Assembly: GCA_903813345.2 (NCBI GenBank)
Contig: CAIIXF020000006.1
Location: 36,182,436 to 36,246,435 of the forward strand
Reading direction: 5' to 3'
Source of the DNA: Owenia fusiformis
Lineage: Eukaryota; Annelida; Polychaeta; Sabellida; Oweniidae
DNA: 64,000 nucleotides
Of this stretch, positions 28-64,000 are shown piece by piece. Position numbers and translations under genes: made by a program. The first letter of the stretch is position 1. Each line of letters starts with the position of its first letter. The notes under the pieces were generated by a model, which had not been told where the DNA came from, ran no database searches, and saw nothing but the letters and a program-made list of their open reading frames with translations.

Positions 28-1150
28 CGATAGGTATCGATATGGTGAATTAGAACTGAATTCAACAATGTTCTCTAAAGTGTCTCACATATTCGATCAA
101 AATTTGCCATGCAAACATGATAGTCTACTTTACTGGCCCCCCTTGCTGTAACAAGGAACACAAAACACATTAAAACGTAAACATAAACCAATTAGTCAGA
201 CGATCACTTCACTATGAAAGTTAGGGGTGTTCAAGGCAAATGTGTGCATGGACTAACACAATGTCAGTGGTCATTTACTGTGTCAACTTAGTAACCCTTG
301 CATATCGTGCTCACTCAAGTATTGAATAATTTTTTTTATAATCTAAATGTTTGTGGTTTATAAAAAAATGTGTAATATATTTTAGTTGGAAATACATTAA
401 TAAATATATTCATTCAAACAGCACTAGAATGCGGGAAGAAAGAGCAATGGTGACAAAATGCAGACCGAATTTTCCGTAAGGGTTTCAAACATTTCTGGAC
501 ACAATCATACATGTACTTCATGTGTACTGTTATTTTTAGTGCTGTATTTATAGATATAATTTCACGTATTAAAATCATATTTTCCAGCAATGACAAGCAA
601 ATTCGGAACCACCCCCATATCACATTTTCTTCAATAACTCCAAACATGTGTAAACATTGACCATGTGCATATAAATTCAGATTTCACGAGCTCATTCCTA
701 TTCGGGTACCTCATACACCCCTGCATGGATTTGAGTTGGATTCGCCTTTTCTACGTGAGCTGGTACACATCGCAAACGCTGATTGGATAAAGATTGCGAG
801 AATCTTTCAACCAATTATTGAAATCATTCTGTAAAACGCACGTGGTATTTTATGCAATGTTGACTGATTGACAACAAGTTAATGCGAAAATTATTGATAT
901 ACTATGTATGTTTTATATATTAACTGTTTCTGTTAACATTTTTAAAGCAATTGTTTTTTGTTCCTTTCTACCAATTCTTGAGAATAAAATAAAATGTCTT
1001 TCCGTTCCTTGTTGGAACAAAATAGCATTTACGACATTTTCTCAGACCTCACAATATTATAGTTATACAAAAGATAAAACTTTTATTTCACTAACAAAAT
1101 ACTTTCTTAAAATCGATCAATATTTCTTTTGTACAATATTTATCTGAGAA
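28..1150. mobile_element. Interrupted copy of a foldback element (TIR GGTATCGATATGG)
   Basis: Bases 36-78 carry the terminal motif GGTATCGATATGG followed by a stretch with GAACTGAATTCAACAATG. Bases about 803-1150 match, in reverse complement, the arm of the intact family member at 21830-22558 (for example GACTGATTGACAACAA). About 720 bases between the two parts are unrelated and look like a later insertion. No opposite terminus was found. Short open frames here are element sequence, not genes. Confidence 0.6.
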
Positions 1151-1180
1151 ATCACAAACTTCCATGCATACGTATTTCAC

Positions 1181-3379
1181 ATGATTGCACGGACAATGAG
1201 GAACATCCCAAGACGAACAACAACGTTGTTTCTGTTTATTTTGTTGACTTTACAACTTTTGGTTATTGTACCTAGTAAACAAACAATGAATTTGAGAATA
1301 ATAGAAAGAAAGAGGCTGCTCAGAACAGTGCGAATCACCATAAATCCCGAAATACATGCTCCAACCGACTCGACTGATCCGGATGTCGACGCTAAAACAA
1401 AGTCATTCGGTCCACAATTCGGCGATCAGACACAGCCAATCGATCTAGAAGTCGGCGCTCAAGCAACACATCCAGAAGATAACGCTAAAACAACTCCAAG
1501 CCATCCAAAGGTCGGCGCTCAAACAACGTCAATCGATCCAGAAGTCGGCGCTCAAACAACGCCAATCGATCCAAAGGTCGGCGCTCAAACAACGTCAATC
1601 GATCCAGAAGTCGGCGCTCAAACAACGCCAATCGATCCAGAAGTCGGCGCTCAAACAACGTCAATCGATCCAGAAGTCGGCGCTCAAACAACGCCAATCG
1701 ATCCAGAAGTCGGCGCTCAAACAACGCCAATCGATCCAGAAGTCGGCGCTCAAACAACGCCAATCGATCCAGAAGTCGGCGCTCAAACAACGTCAATCGA
1801 TCCAGAAGTCGGCGCTCAAACAACGCCAATCGATCCAGAAGTCGGCGCTACGATAGAACCAGTTGATTTTGACAATGTTTCTGCAATTACGACCAATAAG
1901 ACCAAGGAGTCAATAGAAGACATTGATCGATGTGCAAAAGAAAACATTGACCTTAATTGCACTTTGAATACATGTCAAGGTAGATGCGGTCAAGTTAACA
2001 ATTACACCGACTCGACATGGCTCTCTTTGTGTTCCTGTGATGACGAATGTAACGAATATGGTGACTGCTGCAAGGACTATAGAGACACTTGCGTCAATGA
2101 AACAACTATTACGAGAAATCAAAAACCACTTACACAAATCCATGAAGATGAACTGGCACGTGGGGGTTCATATGAATGCCGAAACATTGGCCCTGGTAGA
2201 TATGTTTACATGATATACTCATGTAGTCCTGGTTACAAGGACCACGATATCGTAGAGAAATGTCATTCTACATCAAACATAGAAAGTATGATACCAGTAA
2301 CCGATCAAATGACAAACGACATCTACCGAAACTATTTCTGCGCCTTGTGTAACTATGTTCACAATGTATCATTTTGGGACATTTTAACAAGTTGTAAAAA
2401 GCAAAACGCAGTCTACTTGATCGACAGTCGCGTTTTCTTCAGCTTACTAAACTTACACAATCTTTCAAGGTCTCGGTGCGTAGTAGAAAAAATATCAACT
2501 GGGACCCCAAATATGCGAACATGCTTTCCGGTCGATGATACATGTTCTCCAAAGTGTAAAACCAATCGATTGATACAGGCTTGTAAAAGAGGACCATTCG
2601 ACGTCCAAGCTTACCAAAGTACAATTACAGGTGAAAATGCGTATGCGAGAAACAAACATTGTCTACAGTGTAATCCTGGGGGTATCTGCAACACAAATGC
2701 CTCATTTCATGGAAAAACTGATTTGATTTTACCGTTTTTATCTTATTCTTTATTAGCCGATGTTCGTACAATGGGAGATCCTGGCTTGAATATCCAACTG
2801 AAGACTCAGTCGGGCATGGGAAGACTAGATTTACGCTTCAAGATAAACGGAACACGGGCCAGTCTTCTTAAATGTTCCCTGCCATTTGTACTTGCCGATG
2901 GTCGATGTATTTTGCAAGAAATGGCGATAGCGTGTCGCTGTTTGATCCCATTTGATGGTAACCTCACACATGACGTCATCGTAGCTGTAAATAGAGTCAT
3001 TTTAACCATTTTTAAAGTTGTCGGAGTTGTCTTAATAAGAAGTTTTAAAGAAAGTCCAACAGTGTTGACAACAGAATTTTTCGCGACAGTCTCTGATGAT
3101 TCCGTCACCAATTGGAGAAGCCCAATGATTCATAATGAGAAAGTGCTCCAGTCTGTATATCCTCCATTGGTGTCCAATACACGCTACTGTACATTCAGAA
3201 ATACTACAACAGGGAAAATACCCCAGGGACAAATTAATGGTGAAAAGGAACTGAAGAATATCGACAAATGGACAACCCCCACAAGCAACGTAAGTGATGA
3301 AGCCCAGCTTGCGTCGAGCTTTGGTAAATCATTTATCTTCTTAAGTGGACTTTATGTATTCATAGAGCTGTCTTTCTAA
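1181..3379 (+). CDS. Secreted or GPI-anchored somatomedin-B domain protein with 11-residue repeats
   Basis: This is an intronless 732-residue protein. Residues about 14-31 form a hydrophobic signal peptide after an Arg-rich start. Residues 111-220 are ten exact-length 11-residue repeats (VGAQTTPIDPE or TSIDPE). Residues 251-304 contain a somatomedin-B module with the usual eight cysteines (C265, C269, C284, C286, C290, C296, C297, C304) and the family signature CCKDY. A second Cys-rich region with CALCN follows (about residues 332-460); similar regions occur in the ectodomains of invertebrate methuselah-like receptors. No seven-helix domain is present. The last 15 residues are hydrophobic after a small-residue stretch, so a GPI signal is possible. 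Alternatively this is a receptor ectodomain that lost its membrane part. Function is unknown. A partial copy lies at 17505-18444. The start was chosen because it gives the signal peptide. The 5' flank is transposon sequence. Confidence 0.75.
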   Translation: MIARTMRNIPRRTTTLFLFILLTLQLLVIVPSKQTMNLRIIERKRLLRTVRITINPEIHAPTDSTDPDVDAKTKSFGPQFGDQTQPIDLEVGAQATHPEDNAKTTPSHPKVGAQTTSIDPEVGAQTTPIDPKVGAQTTSIDPEVGAQTTPIDPEVGAQTTSIDPEVGAQTTPIDPEVGAQTTPIDPEVGAQTTPIDPEVGAQTTSIDPEVGAQTTPIDPEVGATIEPVDFDNVSAITTNKTKESIEDIDRCAKENIDLNCTLNTCQGRCGQVNNYTDSTWLSLCSCDDECNEYGDCCKDYRDTCVNETTITRNQKPLTQIHEDELARGGSYECRNIGPGRYVYMIYSCSPGYKDHDIVEKCHSTSNIESMIPVTDQMTNDIYRNYFCALCNYVHNVSFWDILTSCKKQNAVYLIDSRVFFSLLNLHNLSRSRCVVEKISTGTPNMRTCFPVDDTCSPKCKTNRLIQACKRGPFDVQAYQSTITGENAYARNKHCLQCNPGGICNTNASFHGKTDLILPFLSYSLLADVRTMGDPGLNIQLKTQSGMGRLDLRFKINGTRASLLKCSLPFVLADGRCILQEMAIACRCLIPFDGNLTHDVIVAVNRVILTIFKVVGVVLIRSFKESPTVLTTEFFATVSDDSVTNWRSPMIHNEKVLQSVYPPLVSNTRYCTFRNTTTGKIPQGQINGEKELKNIDKWTTPTSNVSDEAQLASSFGKSFIFLSGLYVFIELSF
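1511..1840 (+). repeat. Coding minisatellite, ten 33-bp units
   Basis: Ten head-to-tail 33-bp units begin GTCGGCGCTCAAACAACG. They differ mainly at one codon (CCA or TCA, Pro or Ser) and one Lys/Glu change. The unit is a multiple of three, so copy number can change without a frameshift. Diverged half-units flank the array on both sides. Confidence 0.95.
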
Positions 3380-6986: not shown

Positions 6987-8728
6987 TTAATTTGGCACGA
7001 TCCTGTCTTGCCATGGTACACTTCCTGCTGGAGAGTTGCTCCAGAGCTTCAGAGTATTTCTCACAATCTTCCCCTTTTTGTTTGCTGTGTTGTGGCCTCT
7101 GATATTGACAGCCCTGACATCTTCCAAGTTGCAATCTCTCCTCCATTCCCCAGGAACCATGTCGCCTCTTCTGTCCTCTTGGTCAATCAGTGCATTTTGC
7201 ATTGTAGGGTACCTCATTCTCATCAAGTTGTGGAGAATGCAGCATGTCTTGACTATCAGCCTCGCTGTGGATGGCTTATGGTTCATCGTTGAGAGGAGTA
7301 CCTGAAATGTCATTATGCGTTAAATTGAATTAATTTGAAAATACGGATTAATAGTTAAACTGTTATAGGTCGAATGTGGAACTCAGTTGGTTCCAATTTA
7401 TGCGCATCTTTCAAATTATTTATCAAACAAAACATACTATTTTCATGTCTCAATTAGCGGAAGTTCGAATGAAGTCTCATTTACTCGAAGTCGAATAAAC
7501 GTATCTAGATAGTCCCAGGAACTTGGAGTTTAACTGTTTGTTTCGCCGACAAATATTATAAATTACAATGTACCTGGAATCGGTTGGCCAAAATTCCAAA
7601 GGCGTTTTCTGAAACCCTCCTAGCCCTCGATAACCGGTAGTTTAGAATTCTTTCCTCTCTAGTGAGGGTTCTATGTCCATAGGACTTCAGCATGTGATCA
7701 CTGAGGCAGAATGCGTCATCCCCTACCAAGAAAAAAGGCATATCAACGGTGTCGTTGGGAAATGGCTGTTGGTGTGGAAATGCGATCGAACCATCCTGCA
7801 CCATCTCCAAGAATTCCGATGCATTATAGATCCTGGCATCTCCACTTGAACCATATCCTGAAATTATACAAGAGTAAGAGGATAAAATATTGTCAGTATA
7901 CATTGCAAATATAGATATAATTGTATTAAATCTATATAATTACAAAATTAATGCAGTAACATATGTAGAGTTTACTCACCACCCAGATCACACCACACGA
8001 ACTTGTAGTCTGAGTCGACAATTCCCAGTAAGATGATGCTGTAGAAACCCTTATAATTATAATATAAGGAACCAGAGCTATTAGGCTTTCTGATGGCTAT
8101 ATGTTTGCCATCAATTGCAGCAACGCAATTTGGAAAGTTCCACTTCTCGAGGAAACCATCAGCCAATTGTTTCCATTCTTCAGGTGTGGAGGGGGCAGTC
8201 ATGACCTCATCAACATATTCGTCACATATAGCTTGACAGACTTCTCTTACCACTACAGAGAGGGTATTCTCAGCAACCCGCCAGGAGTACTGCATGTCAG
8301 AGTACTTGGCACCAGAAACCAGGTGGCGAATAGTGGCAGCTAGTTTGAGGCCTGGACCTAAAGGCTCTCTACCAGCTATGTTGTTTCCATAGCCGAGGAC
8401 GGACCCTCTCAAAGATTTCGTCATACATTTCTGTTGGCATACAGAGGAACTTTTTGAATGGTCTGGGGTCCTCTCTTCTCAGCTCCACCATGAGCTGATC
8501 ATATATGCCGAATTGGCGCCGTCTCTCTGGATTCAACCATTGTCTCCTCCAGATGCCACGTCCTCTGACTCCCCTTTTCCGCCTAAAACGGCCTCTGATG
8601 AACTCATGAATGTTAAGTTGCTGCGTTAAAACTTCTTGCTGGGCCATAGCAGCCACATACTGCAGCCTCAGTCGATCTGTGTCTTCCATGACAAAAGAAT
8701 TATTTGATTTAATTTGGTATTCTCTCAA
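6987..8728 (-). pseudogene. Harbinger (HARBI1-like) transposase, one frameshift
   Basis: Three exons run right to left: 8728-7980, 7857-7574 and 7301-6987. Splice sites are GTGAGT/CAG and GTACAT/CAG, with phases that keep the frame. All three residues of the DDE nuclease triad are visible: Asp in VAAIDGKHIAI, Asp in FFLVGDDAFCL, Glu in RRVSENAFGIL. DLGGYGSSGDARIYN across the first intron and TCCILHN in exon 3 are family signatures. The N-terminal part (RGRFRRKRG region, probable start at the Met near 8689) is one base out of frame with the nuclease; the shift lies between VRPRL and REPLGPGL, near 8400. The nuclease is otherwise open, which suggests recent activity or that active relatives exist. 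Confidence 0.85.
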
Positions 8729-9681
8729 TTATTCAGCTTAACGTAGATCCAATTCGTAAGTATTCGTTCCACTGCGTACAAGGTTGCAAACTGCCGCAAT
8801 GGTTCGTAATGGGATCGTCGTCAGTCGCTTGATATGCAAATTATGGGGATACGACCTCATCCCCAGCGACCTGTAACGTCACTTGACGAAGCCAATGCGA
8901 AGGTTAACCGATCGTTAACGCATTGAAACGAATTTCGCTGCAATTTGTTGAACATGTTCAAAATTTTCCGACGAAAAAGACTAATTTCAACCGAGGTAAA
9001 CGCTGATAAACGCATCTATACGAACACTGCGACGTACTGTCACGAACTCGTACTAATGAGAACGAATTTGACTAATTTCCTATTCGCCACTATACGCAAG
9101 TTGACGTAAAGGGGTTTTCGTTCATATGTGAGGGGGGCTTTAAATCGGCGAGCAAAGCGCCGTCATTTTTGTTCATACCAACGGCGCTTTGATGGCGCTT
9201 TAAAGCGGCTTGTAAAGCGGCACCAAAGCGTAACAAAGCTTGATTAAAGCATCGGGGTCGTATTTGGTCGTAGAAAAGCTCGGAGTAAAGCGGGATATTC
9301 GGCAAGAGCGCCAAAAAATGTTAAACTGTTTAAAAATTTGGGCGCTCTATTACGAATTGATTAAAGCGCCGAGAGCGTATCAAAGCTTAACAAACCGTAA
9401 CAAAGCTCAGAAAAGCTTGATCCAAAGCGTAAGAAAGCTTAACATAGCTCTGATAGGTTCCTCACGCTTTGATCCCGCTTTGACCAGGCTTTGTTACGCT
9501 TGAAATCACGCTTTGATAAGCTTTGATAAGCATTATTACGCTTTGATTCGATAATGACGCTTTAAATCAGGCTCTGATACGATTACCAAGCTCTGTTGTG
9601 CATTGTTACGCTCTGTTTAGCTCTGTCACGCATTTGAAAATGTCGAGATCGCCGATTTCATGCCACTTTTGATCCAATAAC

Positions 9682-17504: not shown

Positions 17505-18444
17505 GATTAAATGTTATTTCAAAGACTCAATGTGTAGTAGAAAACATCCAATAGGCACCACAAAGATGCGAAAATGCGTACCTGTCGATGTAAAAATATG
17601 TTTTCCAAAATGTAAAAACAGCAAAACCGGGCTGTTCGACGTCCAAGTGTATCAAAGTAAAATCACAGGTGAAACTAGGTATGCGAGAAACAAAAATTGT
17701 CTACAGTGTATTGATAAGATTCATATGACAATTTGCAACACAAATGCCTCGTTTAAAGGGTTCCGATAAGCATCCCGTATAAAAACAATATGGCCGCTCC
17801 AGGCGAATCAACTGGATTAGTCCATTTTTAAGAAATAAGGGGAGTTCTGTAAAATCCAGTTTATAGAAATTGTCTTTGAGATAAAGTAATCCGTTTATAA
17901 TGATTTTGAAAACGTTATCCATAGAGTGATTGCGTTCAAAGAATACGTGTACAACAGCCAATATAAATTATTGTATTAGAACTGCTTTGTTTCATTTGTA
18001 GGATATTTCATATGCCAAGCTGTGTGCTATTACGTTATGGCGAAATTTAGATGCCAATTTTTCCTTATTATACACAAATAGAAGATCCTGAAACTTCACC
18101 CATAAATGTGGAATTGATTTGTCAAAATAAAAATCACCCTTTTATAAATGTGTGACGATCTATAATATACTTATGCTATATAACAGTTAGAGGTGTTGAC
18201 ACAACGACATCGAACCTGTGAACCCTTGAGTATTATTCGGGATCGGGCCTTTTATACTAAACGGTGAGCAACACCAGAAACGAGCGTTCGATTTGCTAAA
18301 CGATATGCGTCACCCTTTAATGGAAAAACTGATTTGATTTTACCGTTTTTATCTTATTCTTTATTAGCAGATGTGCGTACAATGGGAGATTCTGGCTTAA
18401 ATATCCAACTGAAAACTCAGTCGGGCATGGGAAGACTAGATTTT
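17505..18444 (+). pseudogene. Partial duplicate of the somatomedin-B gene, broken
   Basis: Bases about 17505-17756 correspond to residues of the Cys-rich region of the protein at 1181-3379 (shared pieces: FDVQVYQSKITGE, YARNKNCLQC, ICNTNASF). Bases 18317-18444 match the next part (GATTTGATTTTACCGTTTTT onward) and stop at GACTAGATTT. A 560-bp transposon splits the two parts. The 5' and 3' ends of the gene are missing, so it is a fragment without function as protein. Confidence 0.85.
17757..18316. mobile_element. 560-bp element at a TTAA site inside the gene relic
   Basis: Flanked by TTAA on both sides (17753-17756, 18317-18320), with short inverted ends AGGGT/ACCCT. The uninterrupted parental gene defines the boundaries. 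TTAA duplication is used by piggyBac and some other superfamilies; the ends are too short to decide. Confidence 0.7.
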
Positions 18445-31257: not shown

Positions 31258-31540
31258 ATTCAAGTCACTTCAATTCAGTTCAAGTTCATTGTTTCATTAG
31301 AACATTTGCTTTGCAGCTTTAAATGGCAATAATGCCCGGCCGAAAATTACCCGAAATATCCGAACGAATTCTTTGCAAAGGTGGGTTTCAATTTTTTTAG
31401 TAGGGCTAAATTCTTCACATCTCTTCTTGATTTGATCGTTATAAAATAGCAACCAATCAATATGTTCTTAATTAAACATTTCGAAAGAAAGAAAGGAACG
31501 TCTTTTTTCAATTTTTCGCCAAAAAATCTTTCATATTATA
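31258..31540. other. Left flank of the Transib-like element
   Basis: Bases about 31493-31520 (GGAACGTC, TTCAATTTTTCGCC) resemble 17200-17235, which continues without the insertion. No gene recognised. Confidence 0.5.
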
Positions 31541-32029
31541 CACTGTGGCTAGTCGATCTATGTGGATGCAGTCATTTATATGTAATGTATCGTGGGTACT
31601 CGCGTACATTATAGGGAATGGGATCATTGCAAAAATATGACAGCAAATCGAGGTAAGTGATCTCAGAGTTTCTACTTAACATTGTGACTTGAAATCTTGC
31701 ATACATATTCAATATACATAGTATGACAATGTGTGAAAGTTTCAGCTACCATATTCCTGTTATAGGGAAGATATTTGAAAAACATTTCGTAAACGTCAAC
31801 ATATATGTATAAAATGGATGCACCTATGTATCATTTGGATTCAGAACGGTAACAAATGGATGCTTTAATAAATTATACTTTTATCATGATGATTTATTTA
31901 CTGATGGACAACTGGCCAGATTTTCTTTGTATCCATTGTTTGGATAAACATTCCTCATTCAGTAAAGTAATTAGCCACCCCATTACAAGTAGTCTAAAGA
32001 CACCCTCATGAAAAATTGAAAATACTATA

Positions 32030-33096
32030 TACAGGGTGGTCCAAAAAAAATTGGAACATTTGATAATTGAACTTAAAATCTTTATTTTTTCTCTAAAATG
32101 CACCAAAATTTTACTGAGTATTGTTCAATCACTTATTTATCTGATGTAAAGTTTATAGGTGCAAACAACAAAGTTAATGCATTAAACTAGAGAATGTTTG
32201 ATATGACCCCTTTTCTCCTGAATTACAAGTTGAAGCCTGGGACTCAGTTTTGAAATGATTCATTCACTTTGCTGTTCGTTTGATTTTCTGCAAACCATCT
32301 TGATTAAAAATTCAGCTTGAACAAACTACTTATATGTTTGCCTTGGAAGATCAAATATATGAACATATTCCACATTTTTTACCCAAATTGATGGGTATCA
32401 AGCATATTTTGATGGCTATTTTCGGATATATTACTGGTTGAATATTCTCCAGAAAGGGGCCAGGGCAGTCTGTTTTGACTGGTAAATGAACCCACTCCCC
32501 TTTCGTGTTCTAATATGAATAATATTTATTGGATTTATCAATATATGTATATCAATATCATAAATGAGTTTCCCAGAACACAAATTATATATAATGTGTA
32601 CTTAGAGGTGGTCTTTAATAAAGCCTTGTAAATAACTAGTCAGTTTCCCCTCTACTGAAAAATGGAAACAATGATTTTGTCAGTTTAGTAGCTGTATGGG
32701 TGATGCAATCACTCACCTCTGACATGTTCTTTCTTTCCTACTCTTAAATAAAATTTAGGGTATTCTTAAGTTGACAATAACACAATAGTTTTCCAGTAAA
32801 CCATAGATGTTAATACCTCATGTCAACAAAATATGATTTTATAAATGTGTATACCAATCAACAAAGAATACTTGAAAAAGTAGCTGCGAAATTGACAAGT
32901 GTATATTTAAGAAAAGGGGGTCATATCAAACATTGACTAGTTTAATGCATTAACTTTGTGGTTTGCACTTATAAACTTTACATCAGAGAGATAAGTGACT
33001 GAACTATGCTCAGTGAAATTTTGGTGCATTTTAGAGAAAAAATAAAGGTTTTGTGTTCAATTAACAAATGTTCCAATTTTTTTGGACCACCCTGTA
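32030..33096. mobile_element. Mariner-type element, TIR TACAGGGTGGTCC
   Basis: Inverted ends TACAGGGTGGTCCAAAAAAA at a TA site, with arms of about 180 bp (TAAACTTTACATCAG and inverse). No transposase recognised in the middle. Confidence 0.85.
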
Positions 33097-33109
33097 TAAA
33101 CCCATCAAC

Positions 33110-33994
33110 TGGAAAATACCATTACAGATGAAATAAAGGACCCACGGTCCTGTGCTCACACAGTGTAGAACCTTCAGAGGAATGTATATCCTGATTTTCA
33201 AACAAAGGTATTAGTAAATATGAGATCAATAAAAGATGAGTCATTTGTTGTTGGTTCAGCTATGATTTGTTGTAGTCAAAGGAAAAACTATGAATTTGAC
33301 CTAGATTTTGACCTAGGCCTTTTAGTGTACACATTTTGAAGGAAAGTAGATTTTGAGGACGGCTTCTATTGTAGATTCTTATTAAGTTGGCTGCATCCAA
33401 GCTGTATCTAGTGTTGTGTTGTTACAATTGATAATTTTCTCAAGCCCCATTGACTTAACATGGGATACCAAAATAGCGATTTTTGAGATTTCAAAATGCC
33501 ATAACTTCCGAACCGGAAGTCGGATCAAAATCTGGTTTGCAGATTCGGATTTCTTGGACAATTCTGCACATATTTCATAACTTATACATTCCAAAAACTT
33601 TTTATTGTGACCTACTTTTCGGATGCCATATCTCAAAAACGGTAAGAGTGATCAAAAAAAACTTGCCTGTAGGGATTAGCTTTTTCCCAAGGAACATGAT
33701 TTAAAAAAACGGAGCAAAAATATTGAAGGACGACTGAGAAAATTGAAAAAAATGAAAAAGTACTGGATTTGACCTAGTTCTTGACCTAGATTAAACCTGA
33801 TTAGACCTAGATCTGGACTTGGACCTGAACTGGACCTTGACTTGGACCTGGAAATGAACTGGACTGGTATTTTTTCAATCTTGTCTTCACTTCTCTTGAC
33901 TTTCTATAAGGCTATCATCAGATCGATTTTTTTTTTAAATCAGCAAATTCTCGGAAACCGGGCAAACTTGGGAAATGGCGATGATAGGTCAAAT
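33110..33994. other. Interior of the Transib-like element, GACCTAG-rich
   Basis: Recurrent GACCTAG, GACCTGG and GACTTGGACCTG between 33298 and 33860 suggest a decayed simple repeat. No gene recognised. Confidence 0.4.
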
Positions 33995-34454
33995 CTGTAG
34001 ATTGGGTTAATTTGGCGCTACTTAATTTGGCGATTTTGCCATTTTTGGCATATTGGCGGCTATTTAATTTGGCGGATATGCAAAAAAAATGTTTGGCTAT
34101 GTTCTTTTTTTCTTTTGAGAACCACTGGCGATATTCAACACGTTTGTACATTTTTGTGAGATCATCCTTTACATTTTGCACCTTGATCGATGCTGCTACC
34201 ATACCACGCTTTTCCTTTCTAGTTATTCCCTGAGTATTAATGAGTGACTGACCAGTTCTGAGCCAATTTATGAGAGACAGTTCATATTTTTGGAAAAAAA
34301 CTAAACCGGAAGTGACCTAAATACACTGGACGAAATACCCTAGACAATTCCCCGGGATTCATTCTAAATTTTGGCGAAGATTTATATTGGCGAATTTTTC
34401 AGTTTTGCCAAATTCGCCAAATTAAAGCGGGCGCCAAATTAACCCAATCTACAG
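33995..34454. mobile_element. MITE with perfect 24-bp TIR, TTTGGCG-rich
   Basis: CTGTAGATTGGGTTAATTTG (continuing GCGC) is repeated exactly in inverse at the right end. AATTTGGCG and GCCAAATT recur just inside both ends as subterminal repeats. No coding capacity. Confidence 0.85.
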
Positions 34455-34525
34455 TAGACAGTATGGATATGCATAAAATGAAGGTGGAAATGACTCAATC
34501 CGAATAGCAGTTTTAATTTGTGCAG

Positions 34526-35331
34526 CCAATGTTGACAGACGGACGGACCAACGGACAGACAGACGGACCAAATCAAGTTTCATAGCCTTGCCCAAGTCGG
34601 TCTCTTTTACTTATCTTGATTTCTATTATGACCGCCTTGTACCCAAGAGAAAGCCACGTGCTTTACCGACCAAATGTTTTTGTCGGTAAAATTTGACAAA
34701 TCAACGATGGCCCTACATTCTGGACTAGGTCTTTGTGTATTTCCATCGCGAATTTAGTTTTGATTTTGAATCAACATTGAATTGCATGATTTCATTTAGA
34801 CGAGTATTAATGACTGCTTACATTCCAATGTACATTTAATAATATAATATATTGTAACTCTCAAGAAACACTCGATCAGATCATTGAATTTAAAGTCCTA
34901 GACGGGTAGTTTGCTTTTTTTTGCAGGTCAACCTGATAACGTTTTGATTGGTCAATCAGCCTGAAGTCACACGTTGTGTCCATGTCCATATTGTCAATCA
35001 ATATGGTTTTGCGATACCCTTAGGTAGCCTAGGTATTATTGGAATCTCGAAACCGCTGAATAACTTAGCATAATATCAGCGATGATGCATTGGATTGTAC
35101 AAGGTGGTAATAATTCAAGATCAGATAAGTAAATAAATACCGACTTGGGCAAGGCTACAAGTTTCAGAGCCATTAACATTCCTTGAAAGTGACAATGAGC
35201 AGCCAACAGATGGACCATCCGTAAATCTTGATGATTTTGTCAGGTCAGCTGAACGAGCCTCCAGATTCCTTGAAACAAATGACCATAATTCAAGAATAAT
35301 ATTATCTATTTACAATTTTTTTGAAATCGTG
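34526..35331 (+). pseudogene. Possible coding exon split by a Mutator-like MITE
   Basis: After the acceptor TTTTAATTTGTGCAG an open frame begins, is cut at CAAGTTTCA by the element 34583-35156, and continues in the same frame once the element and one copy of the 9-bp duplication are set aside. The second part reads SEPLTFLESDNEQPTDG, then NLDDFVRSAERASRFLE, and ends at a strong donor GTAAGT (35332). The composition looks like protein and the donor is good. I recognise no family. It lies inside the Transib-like element, so it may be a carried exon or chance. Confidence 0.25.
34583..35156. mobile_element. Mutator-like element with 9-bp target duplication
   Basis: Ends TAGCCTTGCCCAAGTCGG and CCGACTTGGGCAAGGCTA, flanked by CAAGTTTCA on both sides. 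Same family as 17327-17439. Confidence 0.85.
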
Positions 35332-35934
35332 GTAAGTGGAATCTTTCCAATTACCAATATAGCATTATTATTGTTTTTGGACACTGTGGATTAAAATATT
35401 AAAAATACACACATTCAAAATGATTTAATTGAAACCTAGCCAGTCTGTTCAATGAATCCAATCAGAACGTCTACTAATCCACATGATACATCATAATTAA
35501 ATTGCTTTTTTAAAGCGGATATTTCATACCATAACCCCAAAAATATTATAGAACGCATTGTATTTGTATTTTACTTCACACAGACATATTTGTGTATGTG
35601 AAATAATTATATTACTTGAATTTTTTATTCCCCATTACAAGGTAAACCTATGGCAAATTATACATACCTTCTCACAGCTATGAGCGAGATGATAAAACTG
35701 GTCGAGTGAACTCGTTTGAGTTATCTATTCTCCGTAAAAATATCAGAGAATGTGTGTTTATAGCGTAGCTTTGGTTTTGTAAATCAATGAAGTATGATAT
35801 ACACGGATGAGTAAATATAGATTATTTAAACAGAAGTGCAAAATTCTTCCATTGAAAAGTACAGAGGCGGGCACTCACGAAACATTACATGTGCCTGACT
35901 GCATCCACATGGATCGACTAGCCACAGTGTTATA

Positions 35935-44175: not shown

Positions 44176-45222
44176 TTAACTTATTAACTTTTCTTGTTCA
44201 TTCCATATTTTCCACAGGTCCATGCCAAGGACCTCATGCATGGCTATAGTGTCTCTATACGCTTCTTTTGTGTATGGTACATTGTAGTAATGCATATGTT
44301 CAGAGTGTGTCAATCGTATTCCAAGTTTCCATGCCACTATACCAATGAAAACATCATCAAAACGCGTATATTTAGTATATAACATTGCTATGTTGAATTT
44401 GTGTATAGTTTCCATAGTAACTAAGTAAGAACCAGCGGTTGGATATGGCGGCCAATAAAAATATGGATATTCCTCAAGCGTCACATACCACTTGGAGTTT
44501 TTTTGTCGCAAAGGTCTTGCATATGTCCATATATAGCCTGCGATGAAATTTTTACGTTTTGATTCTGGAACTGTGTGGATGAATTTTTTCAGATTCCTAT
44601 TTGAGACGTAATAATCGTCATCCAAGAAAAACGCATATTTGGCATTACTGCAGTATTGTTCAACCCATTTAAAAGCCAGCATTGTTTTAATTGTGTTATT
44701 CCAATAACTATCTTTGAAAAAATACTGCACGATGTCATGGAATGCTACATTTTCTTCATGAATTTGTTGCTGTAGTTCTTGGTTAAGAGGATCAACACCG
44801 ACTACAAATACTCTACGCGTCCTAAATCCTAAATCGTTCATTTCCAGGCCCCAAGTTCTACGAATCATGTTCCTATTTTCAAAATGATTCATCGCTGATT
44901 TTATAACTAAAACTACATGGAGATCCCCAAATACGCCATTAAGACATTTGTCTTCTGCGTTTGACACTTCAGGATGGATCAGTCTATTCAAGGGTCCTAC
45001 CCAAGGTTTCTTACCACGCTCAAACGCAGCAACTAACTTAGGCATATCGACCTCATGTGGATATTTGAATTCACTGAATGATTCAGATCTTGCCATAAGA
45101 TATATGCCAAAATAGTCAAATATAAAGTGCACTGGTATCAATAGTATAAAAATGTAAATATATCTAAATCGCCAGTTTCTCATTCTTCTCCGAGCCATTT
45201 CAAAGGAAGATTCTTGTTCCAT
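44176..45222 (-). CDS. Brainiac-like beta-1,3-N-acetylglucosaminyltransferase / galactosyltransferase (GT31)
   Basis: A 348-residue single coding exon. Residues 21-43 form the transmembrane anchor of a type II Golgi enzyme after a basic cytoplasmic tail (ARRRMRNWRFR). GT31 motifs follow in order: RRTWG (121-125), RRVFVVG (136-142), KYAFFLDDDYYV with the metal-binding Asp triplet (201-203), YPYFYWPPYPTAGSYLV (252-268), and FDDVFIG (288-294). PLRQKNSKWYV and the WPPY loop resemble Drosophila brainiac, which acts in glycosphingolipid synthesis; donor and acceptor here are not certain. All key residues are present. Upstream, 45223-45295 is probably a 5' UTR exon part, because TTTTACTTTCAG precedes it as an acceptor. 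Usual length for the family. Confidence 0.9.
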   Translation of the reverse strand: MEQESSFEMARRRMRNWRFRYIYIFILLIPVHFIFDYFGIYLMARSESFSEFKYPHEVDMPKLVAAFERGKKPWVGPLNRLIHPEVSNAEDKCLNGVFGDLHVVLVIKSAMNHFENRNMIRRTWGLEMNDLGFRTRRVFVVGVDPLNQELQQQIHEENVAFHDIVQYFFKDSYWNNTIKTMLAFKWVEQYCSNAKYAFFLDDDYYVSNRNLKKFIHTVPESKRKNFIAGYIWTYARPLRQKNSKWYVTLEEYPYFYWPPYPTAGSYLVTMETIHKFNIAMLYTKYTRFDDVFIGIVAWKLGIRLTHSEHMHYYNVPYTKEAYRDTIAMHEVLGMDLWKIWNEQEKLIS

Positions 45223-45362
45223 TAGGCAGAATTGTATTTCTTCACAATATCATTTCATAGAAGGTACATCAGCAGAGTCATCATGGGCATTGAGCCTGAA
45301 AGTAAAAGAATTTTCAAAGAATAACATTTACAATGTAAAATTTCTGCACATGTATCATGTAT

Positions 45363-61788: not shown

Positions 61789-61871
61789 TTGCATGTTGAT
61801 AGAAAAACAATAAGCAATTGCGAAACAAACAAAACGTTATCTTGAAACACTAGACACAATTTTATGGTAAT

Positions 61872-64000
61872 ATGAGTAAAGGTATTCGAGTTGATCCTCA
61901 ATATTATTCAACACAAAGTTACATGCGCAAAGGTCAAAAAAATTTACCCAACAATGAACATTTTACTCCTGATCCTAGCCACCAGGCAAAAATTGCCCCC
62001 GTCTCTACTAACCCTCCCACAATAGATGACGCCTATGATGATGCCTATGGATATGATTTAAACGAACCATATGAATATGAAAACAAAGTTGAGGAATATA
62101 ACGCTCATCAAGGCTTCCTTGAGAAAGGATTTGATGTCGAGGAACTGCGCATGGAACATGAAACCGCAAACGAATGGATGATGCGACGTAAATTTATAGA
62201 TGCTCATAGATTTAATTTCCCTAAAGATCGACTTATCTGTTTATCAAGCTGCTTTGTAAATATTGAGAAATATGGTGCCAGGTACCCCCAACAAGTAATG
62301 GATGACATTAAAAGGTTAACTCAAGGAATGACTGAAGAACTTAATAAACATAAACAAAAAGCAAAGGACTATACAATGACAAATTTTGTAAGGTCCAGTG
62401 GTACTGAAAACAAGAAAGAAGACCCAAGTCAAGCACTGAAAAGGAAATCTGCCGAAGGGGCAGCATATGCTGCAAAAAAGTCTAAGATGTTATTTGTTAA
62501 AGCAGCTGGAGAATTTCAAAGTACTGATGTTACACATGCAAATGAGATCTTATCAGGTGATGCTGATGAAATCTTTAACAATATGTCTGCATCTAAAGAA
62601 AGAATGAAAGATGCTAAAGAAACTTACACGGGCAACCCCATGTCAGACCCAGGAGCCATAAAAGTGTTGTGCTATAAATTCCTCAGGTTGAGTAAAAAGT
62701 TGAACAGTTTCACGGATAAGTCCAAAAATGCTGTTGAGCACATTCATAATGCATGTGCAAGGACACATATGCAGCATAGGGCGGATATAAGACACAGCTG
62801 GGAGTCATTGCCCATTTGCTTTGTATGTGAAGTATACATCAATGAGGTCCTTGTTGGAGTTGGAAGAGGTCAAAAAAAGAAGGACGCAAAACATAATGGA
62901 TATGCGAATGCTCTAGTGACAATAAAGAAAAAGTTTCTCATAGTTTATAAAAATGAGAAGCCAACCCATGGTCGGTTAGAACTGAGAAGTTCGGATGATC
63001 CATTTGACAATGCTGTGTTTATTAACAAGAGGGATATTATGGAGACCATAGAGCCTCCTAAACCCCCGACCCCTCCACCATCTGAAGAGTCAGAGCCCAC
63101 TCCTGTCCCAGAGCCCAGTAAGCCCACTCAAGAAGATCCCAAAAAGTTGAAACCAACAAAGAAACAGCCACTCCCAGCAAAGGAATTTGTGACGCCACCA
63201 CTTAACCCCGATCCTGCCATGCAAACTAAAGATCTCCCAGTTATCAATCCAAATCCCTTCCAAGACCCTTCCCTCCCTGCTCCAGATATCATGTACACCA
63301 AGAAACCTGCTATTAAAATTGCTGCAAAGTTTAAGTCTGCTTCACTTGTTCCTCAACCGAAGAAACAAGAGGACACCAGGCCTTTGACAGTACAGTGGCG
63401 AGATAGGGCCAACAATCATTCCAATCCTAAGATTGCGAATTTTGTCATTAAGGAACCAATGGAGGCTGAAGATGGGTCTGCAGAACCACTAGGTGTGCTG
63501 GTGAACAGTATATCTGCGGCTCCACAATGTGATGGTAATTTCTCGGTGAAGCCAGGGCAAGATGGCCATGTTGGAGTATTCAGTCTTGGTGGTGAGGTAA
63601 GGCTAAACTGGACCTTATTATCCTGAAATAAAGTTAGAAAATGTGTTGAGAAAATAGGGTTGACAGTTGACATGATTATGATGACAATTTGTTCAAAATT
63701 TACGATTTATGTCTCTCATCTCTGCATCTTTTTTATCCACTCAACTTAAATATTCATAAATAATCTCTTATTAACTGTTACTCTATCAGTCGCAGTCAAT
63801 GAAGCAAGCCACAAGAATTAAGTGCATGTACATGCCTGATTAGATTTGTCAAAAAAAATAAGTACTTTTACATATTTTCTGTAGAGAAAACTGTCCAGGC
63901 AGAAAAACCAATCAAAAAATGTTGTGAATTTTGAGCATATTTATTGTTAATTTCAGGTTATTGCTGTAGGGAAAGGAGCCACCCCAAAGGATGCTAAACG
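61872..64000 (+). CDS. NKRF-like protein, XTBD plus dsRNA-binding-like domains (incomplete at window end)
   Basis: Exon 61872-63596 (575 residues), donor GTAAGG; the next exon starts at 63957 after TTAATTTCAG and runs off the window, phase 0 (SLGGE then VIAVGKGATPKDAK). Reading on past 63596 would be intron. Domains: acidic Tyr-rich N-terminus; XTBD at about 94-150 (MEHETANEWMMRRKF, DRLICLSSCFVNIEKYGARYP); basic segment RKSAEG...KKSKM (about 190-206, probable nuclear signal); first dsRNA-binding-like domain about 290-355 (FVCEVYINEVLVGVGRGQKK); Pro-rich linker 395-475; second one from about 515 (PKIANFVIKEP, GVLVNSISAA), continuing into the next exon. This order resembles vertebrate NKRF, which recruits XRN2 and DHX15 in nucleolar rRNA processing. 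G-patch and R3H domains would lie beyond the window. CDKN2AIP is the main alternative. Confidence 0.8.

Follow-up and report, generated by a model that had tools for sequence, protein, structure and literature searches.

A DNA transposon family of Owenia fusiformis with CACTGTG ends probably encodes a YqaJ-nuclease transposase

Which transposase moved the element at positions 31541-35929 of the stretch analyzed here? The stretch, called the window below, comprises 64,000 nucleotides of a contig of the annelid Owenia fusiformis, and the element is a transposon copy of 4,389 bp with inverted ends and an exact TTATA duplication at its borders. A preliminary description, made from the letters of the window, noted that the terminal CACTGTG fits the CACWRTG ends of Transib and RAG-like (ProtoRAG) elements and concluded that a transposase of this type is or was present in the genome. 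Our analysis of the family across the genome assembly favors another reading, to which we give a probability of about two thirds: the element belongs, as a non-autonomous copy, to a family of cut-and-paste DNA transposons whose full-length form, of ~9.24 kb, encodes a probable YqaJ-protein transposase.

The element opens with CACTGTGGCTAGTCGATC at 31541 and closes with the reverse complement at 35929. Its terminal inverted repeats are ~75 bp long; counted inward from the tips, they are identical at 57 of 75 positions and at 33 of the outermost 34, and a repeat-pair search matched both ends over 75 nt at 81%, including some flanking bases. The coordinates and the TTATA duplication are exactly as described previously. 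The terminal 18 bp have 331 exact occurrences across the 498 Mb of the assembly, 161 of them forward and 170 reverse. The same 18-bp pattern read backwards has 0 occurrences. Therefore, the end repeat is not due to chance, and it marks a large dispersed family. Individual end positions were listed for 100 of the 331 occurrences; the common unit described next was obtained by pairing two 100-bp end searches, with the best 40 places scored in each.

The common unit of this family is ~3.05 kb long: among 17 copies compared, including the one in the window, 11 measure 2.86-3.11 kb. The window copy consists of such a unit and two later nested inserts (Table 1), the first of which is not present at the equivalent point of the other copies compared. 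The arms of this insert (within 32028-33098; 171 nt, 91% complementary) make it look, by eye, like a Tc1/mariner-type non-autonomous element. The segment with inverted ends that breaks the first exon is also present in another copy, L013, and is therefore older than the window insertion. The ~3-kb class was considered as the autonomous form and rejected, as the longest stop-to-stop frame in the seven of 11 units examined has 116 codons, which means that those units encode no transposase. In the window copy, the longest such frame has 132 codons; neither this frame nor an 85-codon frame at 35137 gave a Pfam match above the cut-off, in agreement with the earlier remark that the copy has no RAG1-like core. 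Two 7-kb copies (L015 and L034) owe their length to nested inserts with reverse-transcriptase-like open reading frames (ORFs), as read from the translations, and large inserts of other kinds are found in L16_17, L023, and L024.

To characterize insertion, we tabulated target-site duplications over 34 copies, excluding L028, L031, and L032, where both ends were not found. Among the remaining 31 copies, the duplication is 5 bp long in 23 and 6 bp long in four, and four copies have none, three of these being old and diverged; as most copies were picked for well-preserved ends, these statistics favor young copies. The earlier view of the element as a non-autonomous DNA transposon is supported, with 5-bp duplications in 23 of the 27 copies that have one. 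The 23 five-base duplications have a G+C content of 16%, compared with 35% for the window, with T at position 1 in 20 of them and A at position 5 in 17. In addition, the flanks of 27 copies were joined and matched against the window and the fetched loci alone. For three copies, we found a paralogous empty site with a single duplication unit: that of L018 is a repeat at window positions 17840-17953 (96.5%), that of L003 lies in L027 (91%, with one mismatch within the duplication unit), and that of L034 lies in L039 (75%). A second match to the flank of the window element was found at 80%. Single-unit empty sites are the footprint expected of staggered-cut insertion.

A full-length relative, L033 (G000:C6:5362100-5371510), measures 9,241 bp end to end, carries the family ends and is flanked by the duplication TTTAA. 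It is ~96% identical to L018 in both end regions. An A-variant of the end, found at 26 places, marks a subfamily and was the route to L033, while by itself it is not diagnostic of autonomy. In the left part of copies reached through this subfamily, the open frame extends to as many as 231 codons (155 genome matches reported).

Four copies show internal deletions of L033, in three different forms. In L033 numbering, L021 keeps 104-1498 and 8614-9359 (join 1498|8614), L020 and L024 retain 110-736 together with most of 8208-9358 (join 736|8208), and L045 keeps 109-628, 7224-7609, 7807-8483, and 9154-9358 (join 628|7224, with further gaps). The last copy (G000:C4:17006500-17011500) also has a partial tandem duplication, with two left ends 1,254 bp apart that share the same preceding flank; its target duplication, TCAAA, was read by eye and stands outside the counts given above. 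Because the deletions differ, the coding interior of L033 is part of the element at both of its edges. The short forms are best explained as derivatives that arose by deletion from an L033-type element. By alignment, the window copy retains 111-583, 596-637, 780-1015, and 8816-9351, that is, no more than its ends and fragments of the first exon; at its join 1015|8816 the remaining coding interior is gone. In a genome search, the YqaJ exon, or the exon after it, was found at high identity at one locus only, L033, and this fits one source with many derivatives.

The L033 gene has multiple exons, spans the full-length element and encodes a protein of ~1,500 residues, in which a C2H2 finger is followed by a conserved N-terminal domain, a YqaJ (PD-(D/E)XK) nuclease, and a C-terminal region with D-G-Q, D-x-x-H, and E motifs. 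A convergent ORF (L033:7993-8424, minus strand) contains four C2H2-finger stretches (Pfam, 2.6e-13), and pieces of its region recur in L020, L024, L045, L046, and L047. Elsewhere in the genome, the YqaJ ORF has distant homologs at six loci with 29-33% identity (L035-L040, on G000 C11, C5, C11, C7, C3, and C5, respectively), and in three of these the open frame is 1,221-1,467 codons long; a seventh candidate is 40% identical over 82 residues. A pattern scan of viral and genome contig collections yielded 0 confirmed homologs among 154 and 165 matches. The YqaJ domain (PF09588) was matched in L033 (1e-5), L035 (1.3e-8), and L036 (9e-6). The proteins of L035, L036, and L037 align collinearly to L033 492-7240, on a single strand throughout. 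This span is divided into nine exon-like blocks, the first of which is the exon retained by the short copies. Some block borders, but not every one, have GT/AG sites nearby.

We aligned L033 and the six homologs using models assembled from ORF pieces, with some parts missing; residues are numbered as in L035. In the nuclease, E661, D703, E726-x-K728, and Q750 are identical in all seven proteins, and we take E661, D703, E726, K728, and Q750 to be the YqaJ active-site positions (D, E-x-K, Q). In the C-terminal region, D957-G-Q959, E1485, and E1517 are likewise identical in seven of seven, and D1337 and H1340 in all six models that cover them. The N-terminal C2H2 finger is visible in three models (L033, L035, and L036), the other four starting later or showing none. 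The fold of the protein, its catalytic triad and the role of its nuclease are inferred. The YqaJ protein is most likely the transposase of the family, and the element probably belongs to an apparently undescribed cut-and-paste superfamily. No YqaJ-fused transposase was among the matches listed in a literature search made outside subscription papers and Repbase. A more specific proposal, which we advance tentatively and at slightly less than even odds, is that this new superfamily has one transposase of ~1,500 residues fusing a zinc finger, an intact YqaJ PD-(D/E)XK nuclease, and an unrecognized strand-transfer domain, and would be a one-chain eukaryotic counterpart of TnsA-TnsB; its six diverged homologs in this genome may be domesticated host genes.

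In the mechanism that we propose, the YqaJ protein would bind the CACTGTGG ends, perhaps by its finger, excise the element and join it to T..A-type targets by cuts staggered by 5 or sometimes 6 bp. Its nuclease domain may trim or cut the second strand, by analogy with TnsA helping TnsB in Tn7. The window copy and other deletion derivatives, in which the ends and portions of the first exon survive, would be mobilized in trans. In bacterial Tn7, a PD-(D/E)XK nuclease works with the transposase and the duplication is 5 bp long, while TnsA and TnsB are separate or differently arranged proteins. The likeness of our family to this system lies in the pairing of nuclease and probable transposase and in the 5-bp duplication.

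Several observations weigh against a YqaJ transposase. The region L033:1498-7224 is known from one copy only with these ends. None of the six homologs is flanked by convincing inverted ends, as inverted repeats around L035-L040 and an end search around L035-L037 gave weak or non-flanking pairs only. Moreover, no close copies of the homologs were seen; the best other match in a search with L036 was 44%, so there is no sign of recent mobility at that locus. The evidence for mobility of the gene family thus comes from L033, and the homologs are possibly domesticated host genes. The motifs are not uniformly kept: L039 has no D-x-x-H part, D906 is replaced by E in L037, and L037 gave no YqaJ match in a Pfam scan of L033, L035, L036, and L037. 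Beyond YqaJ and zinc fingers, no significant Pfam match was found in the ORFs scanned, and PDB searches returned no transposase at E<=10, with weak unrelated matches only. Finally, codon-position differences in exon 1 are mixed, the third position being highest in two of three groups and the first in the 3-kb group, and these counts are not independent.

The kinship claimed in the preliminary description would make the L033 gene unrelated cargo of a Transib or RAG-like element moved in trans by a RAG1-type transposase, which we consider highly improbable. The likeness consists of ends starting with CAC, mostly 5-bp duplications, and two convergent ORFs in the full-length element; two convergent genes are also carried by RAG-like elements according to an excerpt of PMC7204232. 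CACTGTG does fit CACWRTG, but CA..TG ends together with 2-5 bp duplications are widespread and, in the excerpted text of PMC12730594, occur throughout the CMCT clade. Moreover, the protostome RAG-like consensus in the same PMC7204232 excerpt, CACTWMCAAAC, does not fit CACTGTGGCTA. The convergent gene of L033 is a C2H2-finger ORF and is not RAG2-like. There was no RAG1 Pfam match in eight L033 ORFs (E<=1) or three homologs (E<=10), and no RAG1 or transposase match in 10 L033 ORFs or the homolog ORFs scanned. The RAG1 profile PF12940 had 0 matches in the genome, but the control genomes gave none either, so that absence is not demonstrated. The C(2)C and H(3-4)H motifs, which in the excerpted PMC12730594 are common to Transib, RAG1, and CACTA transposases between the second D and the E, are absent in the seven homologs, on the assumption that D-G-Q holds the second D and the E is C-terminal of it: beyond residue 900, no column has Cys in at least five of the seven, and His reaches that count in a single column, that of D-x-x-H. 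On the same assumption, we rejected membership in the CMCT clade (CACTA etc.), which shares with the family CA..TG termini and short duplications. Four of the 27 duplications are 6 bp long and 23 are 5 bp long, so that the length known from Transib/RAG is seen in most copies but not in all. Transib and RAG targets are GC-rich, whereas those of the family are AT-rich (16% GC). The preliminary description had named beforehand two outcomes that would count against its claim, other duplication lengths and an autonomous relative with another kind of transposase; the 6-bp duplications and the YqaJ protein of L033 are observations of these two kinds.

Alternatively, the family could be moved in trans by a superfamily already known (CACTA/Chapaev-type CMCT, hAT5, or other), L033 being a short copy with a captured or interrupting YqaJ gene. 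The coding interior found in L033 only would be consistent with this, as would the CMCT ends and duplications mentioned above and the 5-bp duplications of hAT5 (excerpt of PMC12730594), which 23 of 27 copies share. Still, we regard it as unlikely, since the first exon sits in the part common to the short copies, the three deletion forms in four copies have edges inside the interior, and no scanned L033 ORF matches a known transposase, though the same Pfam library does recognize a DDE_Tnp_4 remnant elsewhere in the window. Membership in hAT5 was rejected, as the L033 and homolog ORFs scanned gave no hAT Pfam match (hAT C-terminal dimerization domain). The nearest described case is ISL2EU of the PHIS superfamily, which shares a YqaJ exonuclease protein with our family (PF09588 in L033, 1e-5). 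According to a portion of PMC4482050, most ISL2EU elements encode YqaJ in a second ORF, next to that of a DDE/THAP transposase; their ends usually begin with GG, and they target A|AT|T. By contrast, YqaJ in our family lies within one protein of ~1,500 residues, the ends are CACTGTGG and the duplications 5-6 bp; membership was rejected, with no AT duplication, no GG termini, and no DDE_Tnp_4 in the 10 L033 ORFs scanned. Another candidate is a very divergent P-element-type (D..D..D(2)H..E) transposase with an acquired YqaJ, which would make the family a distant branch of the P superfamily; this appears improbable. Two conserved motifs, D-x-x-H-(L/I)-(L/F)-x-N-x-R and, after it, E-x-x-F with its glutamate, are similar to the [C/D](2)H signature given for P in an excerpt of PMC8230255, and this likeness extends to THAP9. 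Using hhalign, the motifs were placed onto P-like proteins of the same genome with E-values of 0.021 and 0.077. However, the seven-homolog profile gave E 0.17 and left D-x-x-H unaligned, and the hhalign probabilities were below 3%, so there is no significant profile similarity. The scans gave no TNP-like Pfam match and no THAP domain. P-element duplications are 7-8 bp long, unlike those of the family (5-6 bp). The spacing differs as well, with 380 residues from D-G-Q to D(2)H (957 to 1337 in L035) vs. 36 in Drosophila P (D303, D339; excerpt of PMC8230255). Two P-element-like proteins of the same genome, L042 and L043, have open frames of 427 and 573 codons.

Table 1. Parts of the window element (window positions; L033 positions in the numbering of that locus).
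Feature	Position	Strand	Remark
Left target-site duplication, TTATA	31536..31540		exact copy at 35930-35934
Left terminal inverted repeat (CACTGTGGCTAGTCGATC...)	31541..31615	+	paired ends; 18-mer end 331 times in the genome
Left end common to L033	31541..32023	+	92% to L033:111-583 by alignment; includes the start of the first exon
C2H2-like finger (...FLCIHCLDKHSSFSKVISH...)	in ORF 31853-32011	+	finger also in L033, L035, L036
Nested insert of ~1.06 kb, TATACAGGGTGGTCCAAAAAAA ends	32032..33094		arms 32028-32214 / 32913-33098
Small first-exon remnant	33095..33136	+	88% to L033:596-637
Nested insert of 460 bp	33995..34454		24-bp perfect inverted ends CTGTAGATTGGGTTAATTTGGCGC
Segment with inverted ends (TAGCCTTGCCCAAGTCGG...) breaking the first exon	34583..35157		segment also in L013
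First exon of putative transposase, second part	35158..35393	+	97% to L033:780-1015; in ORF 35137-35394
Right end common to L033	35393..35929		94% to L033:8816-9351
Right terminal inverted repeat	35855..35929	-	paired ends
Right target-site duplication, TTATA	35930..35934		exact

Elsewhere in the window, a Harbinger-type transposase is split over frames at 6987-8728 on the minus strand (DDE_Tnp_4, 8.2e-6 in the ORF at 7972-8478 and 0.0068 at 6987-7319). A frame of 743 codons at 1148-3379 combines a Somatomedin B domain with some ten nearly identical copies of the repeat GAQTTPIDPEV. Two probable host genes encode a galactosyltransferase (44176-45249, minus strand) and an XTBD/dsrm protein (61854-63626, plus strand).

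Animal genome papers, in the excerpts of PMC7826175 and PMC10225492, list YqaJ gene families among virus- or transposon-derived genes, and if the YqaJ protein is indeed the transposase of this family, some of those listed might be explained by it. It would also add a transposase type with a built-in PD-(D/E)XK nuclease and raise the testable question of second-strand cutting. Moreover, CAC ends resembling recombination signal sequences, together with 5-bp duplications, would on their own be poor evidence of RAG or Transib ancestry, which bears on claims as to how V(D)J recombination arose.

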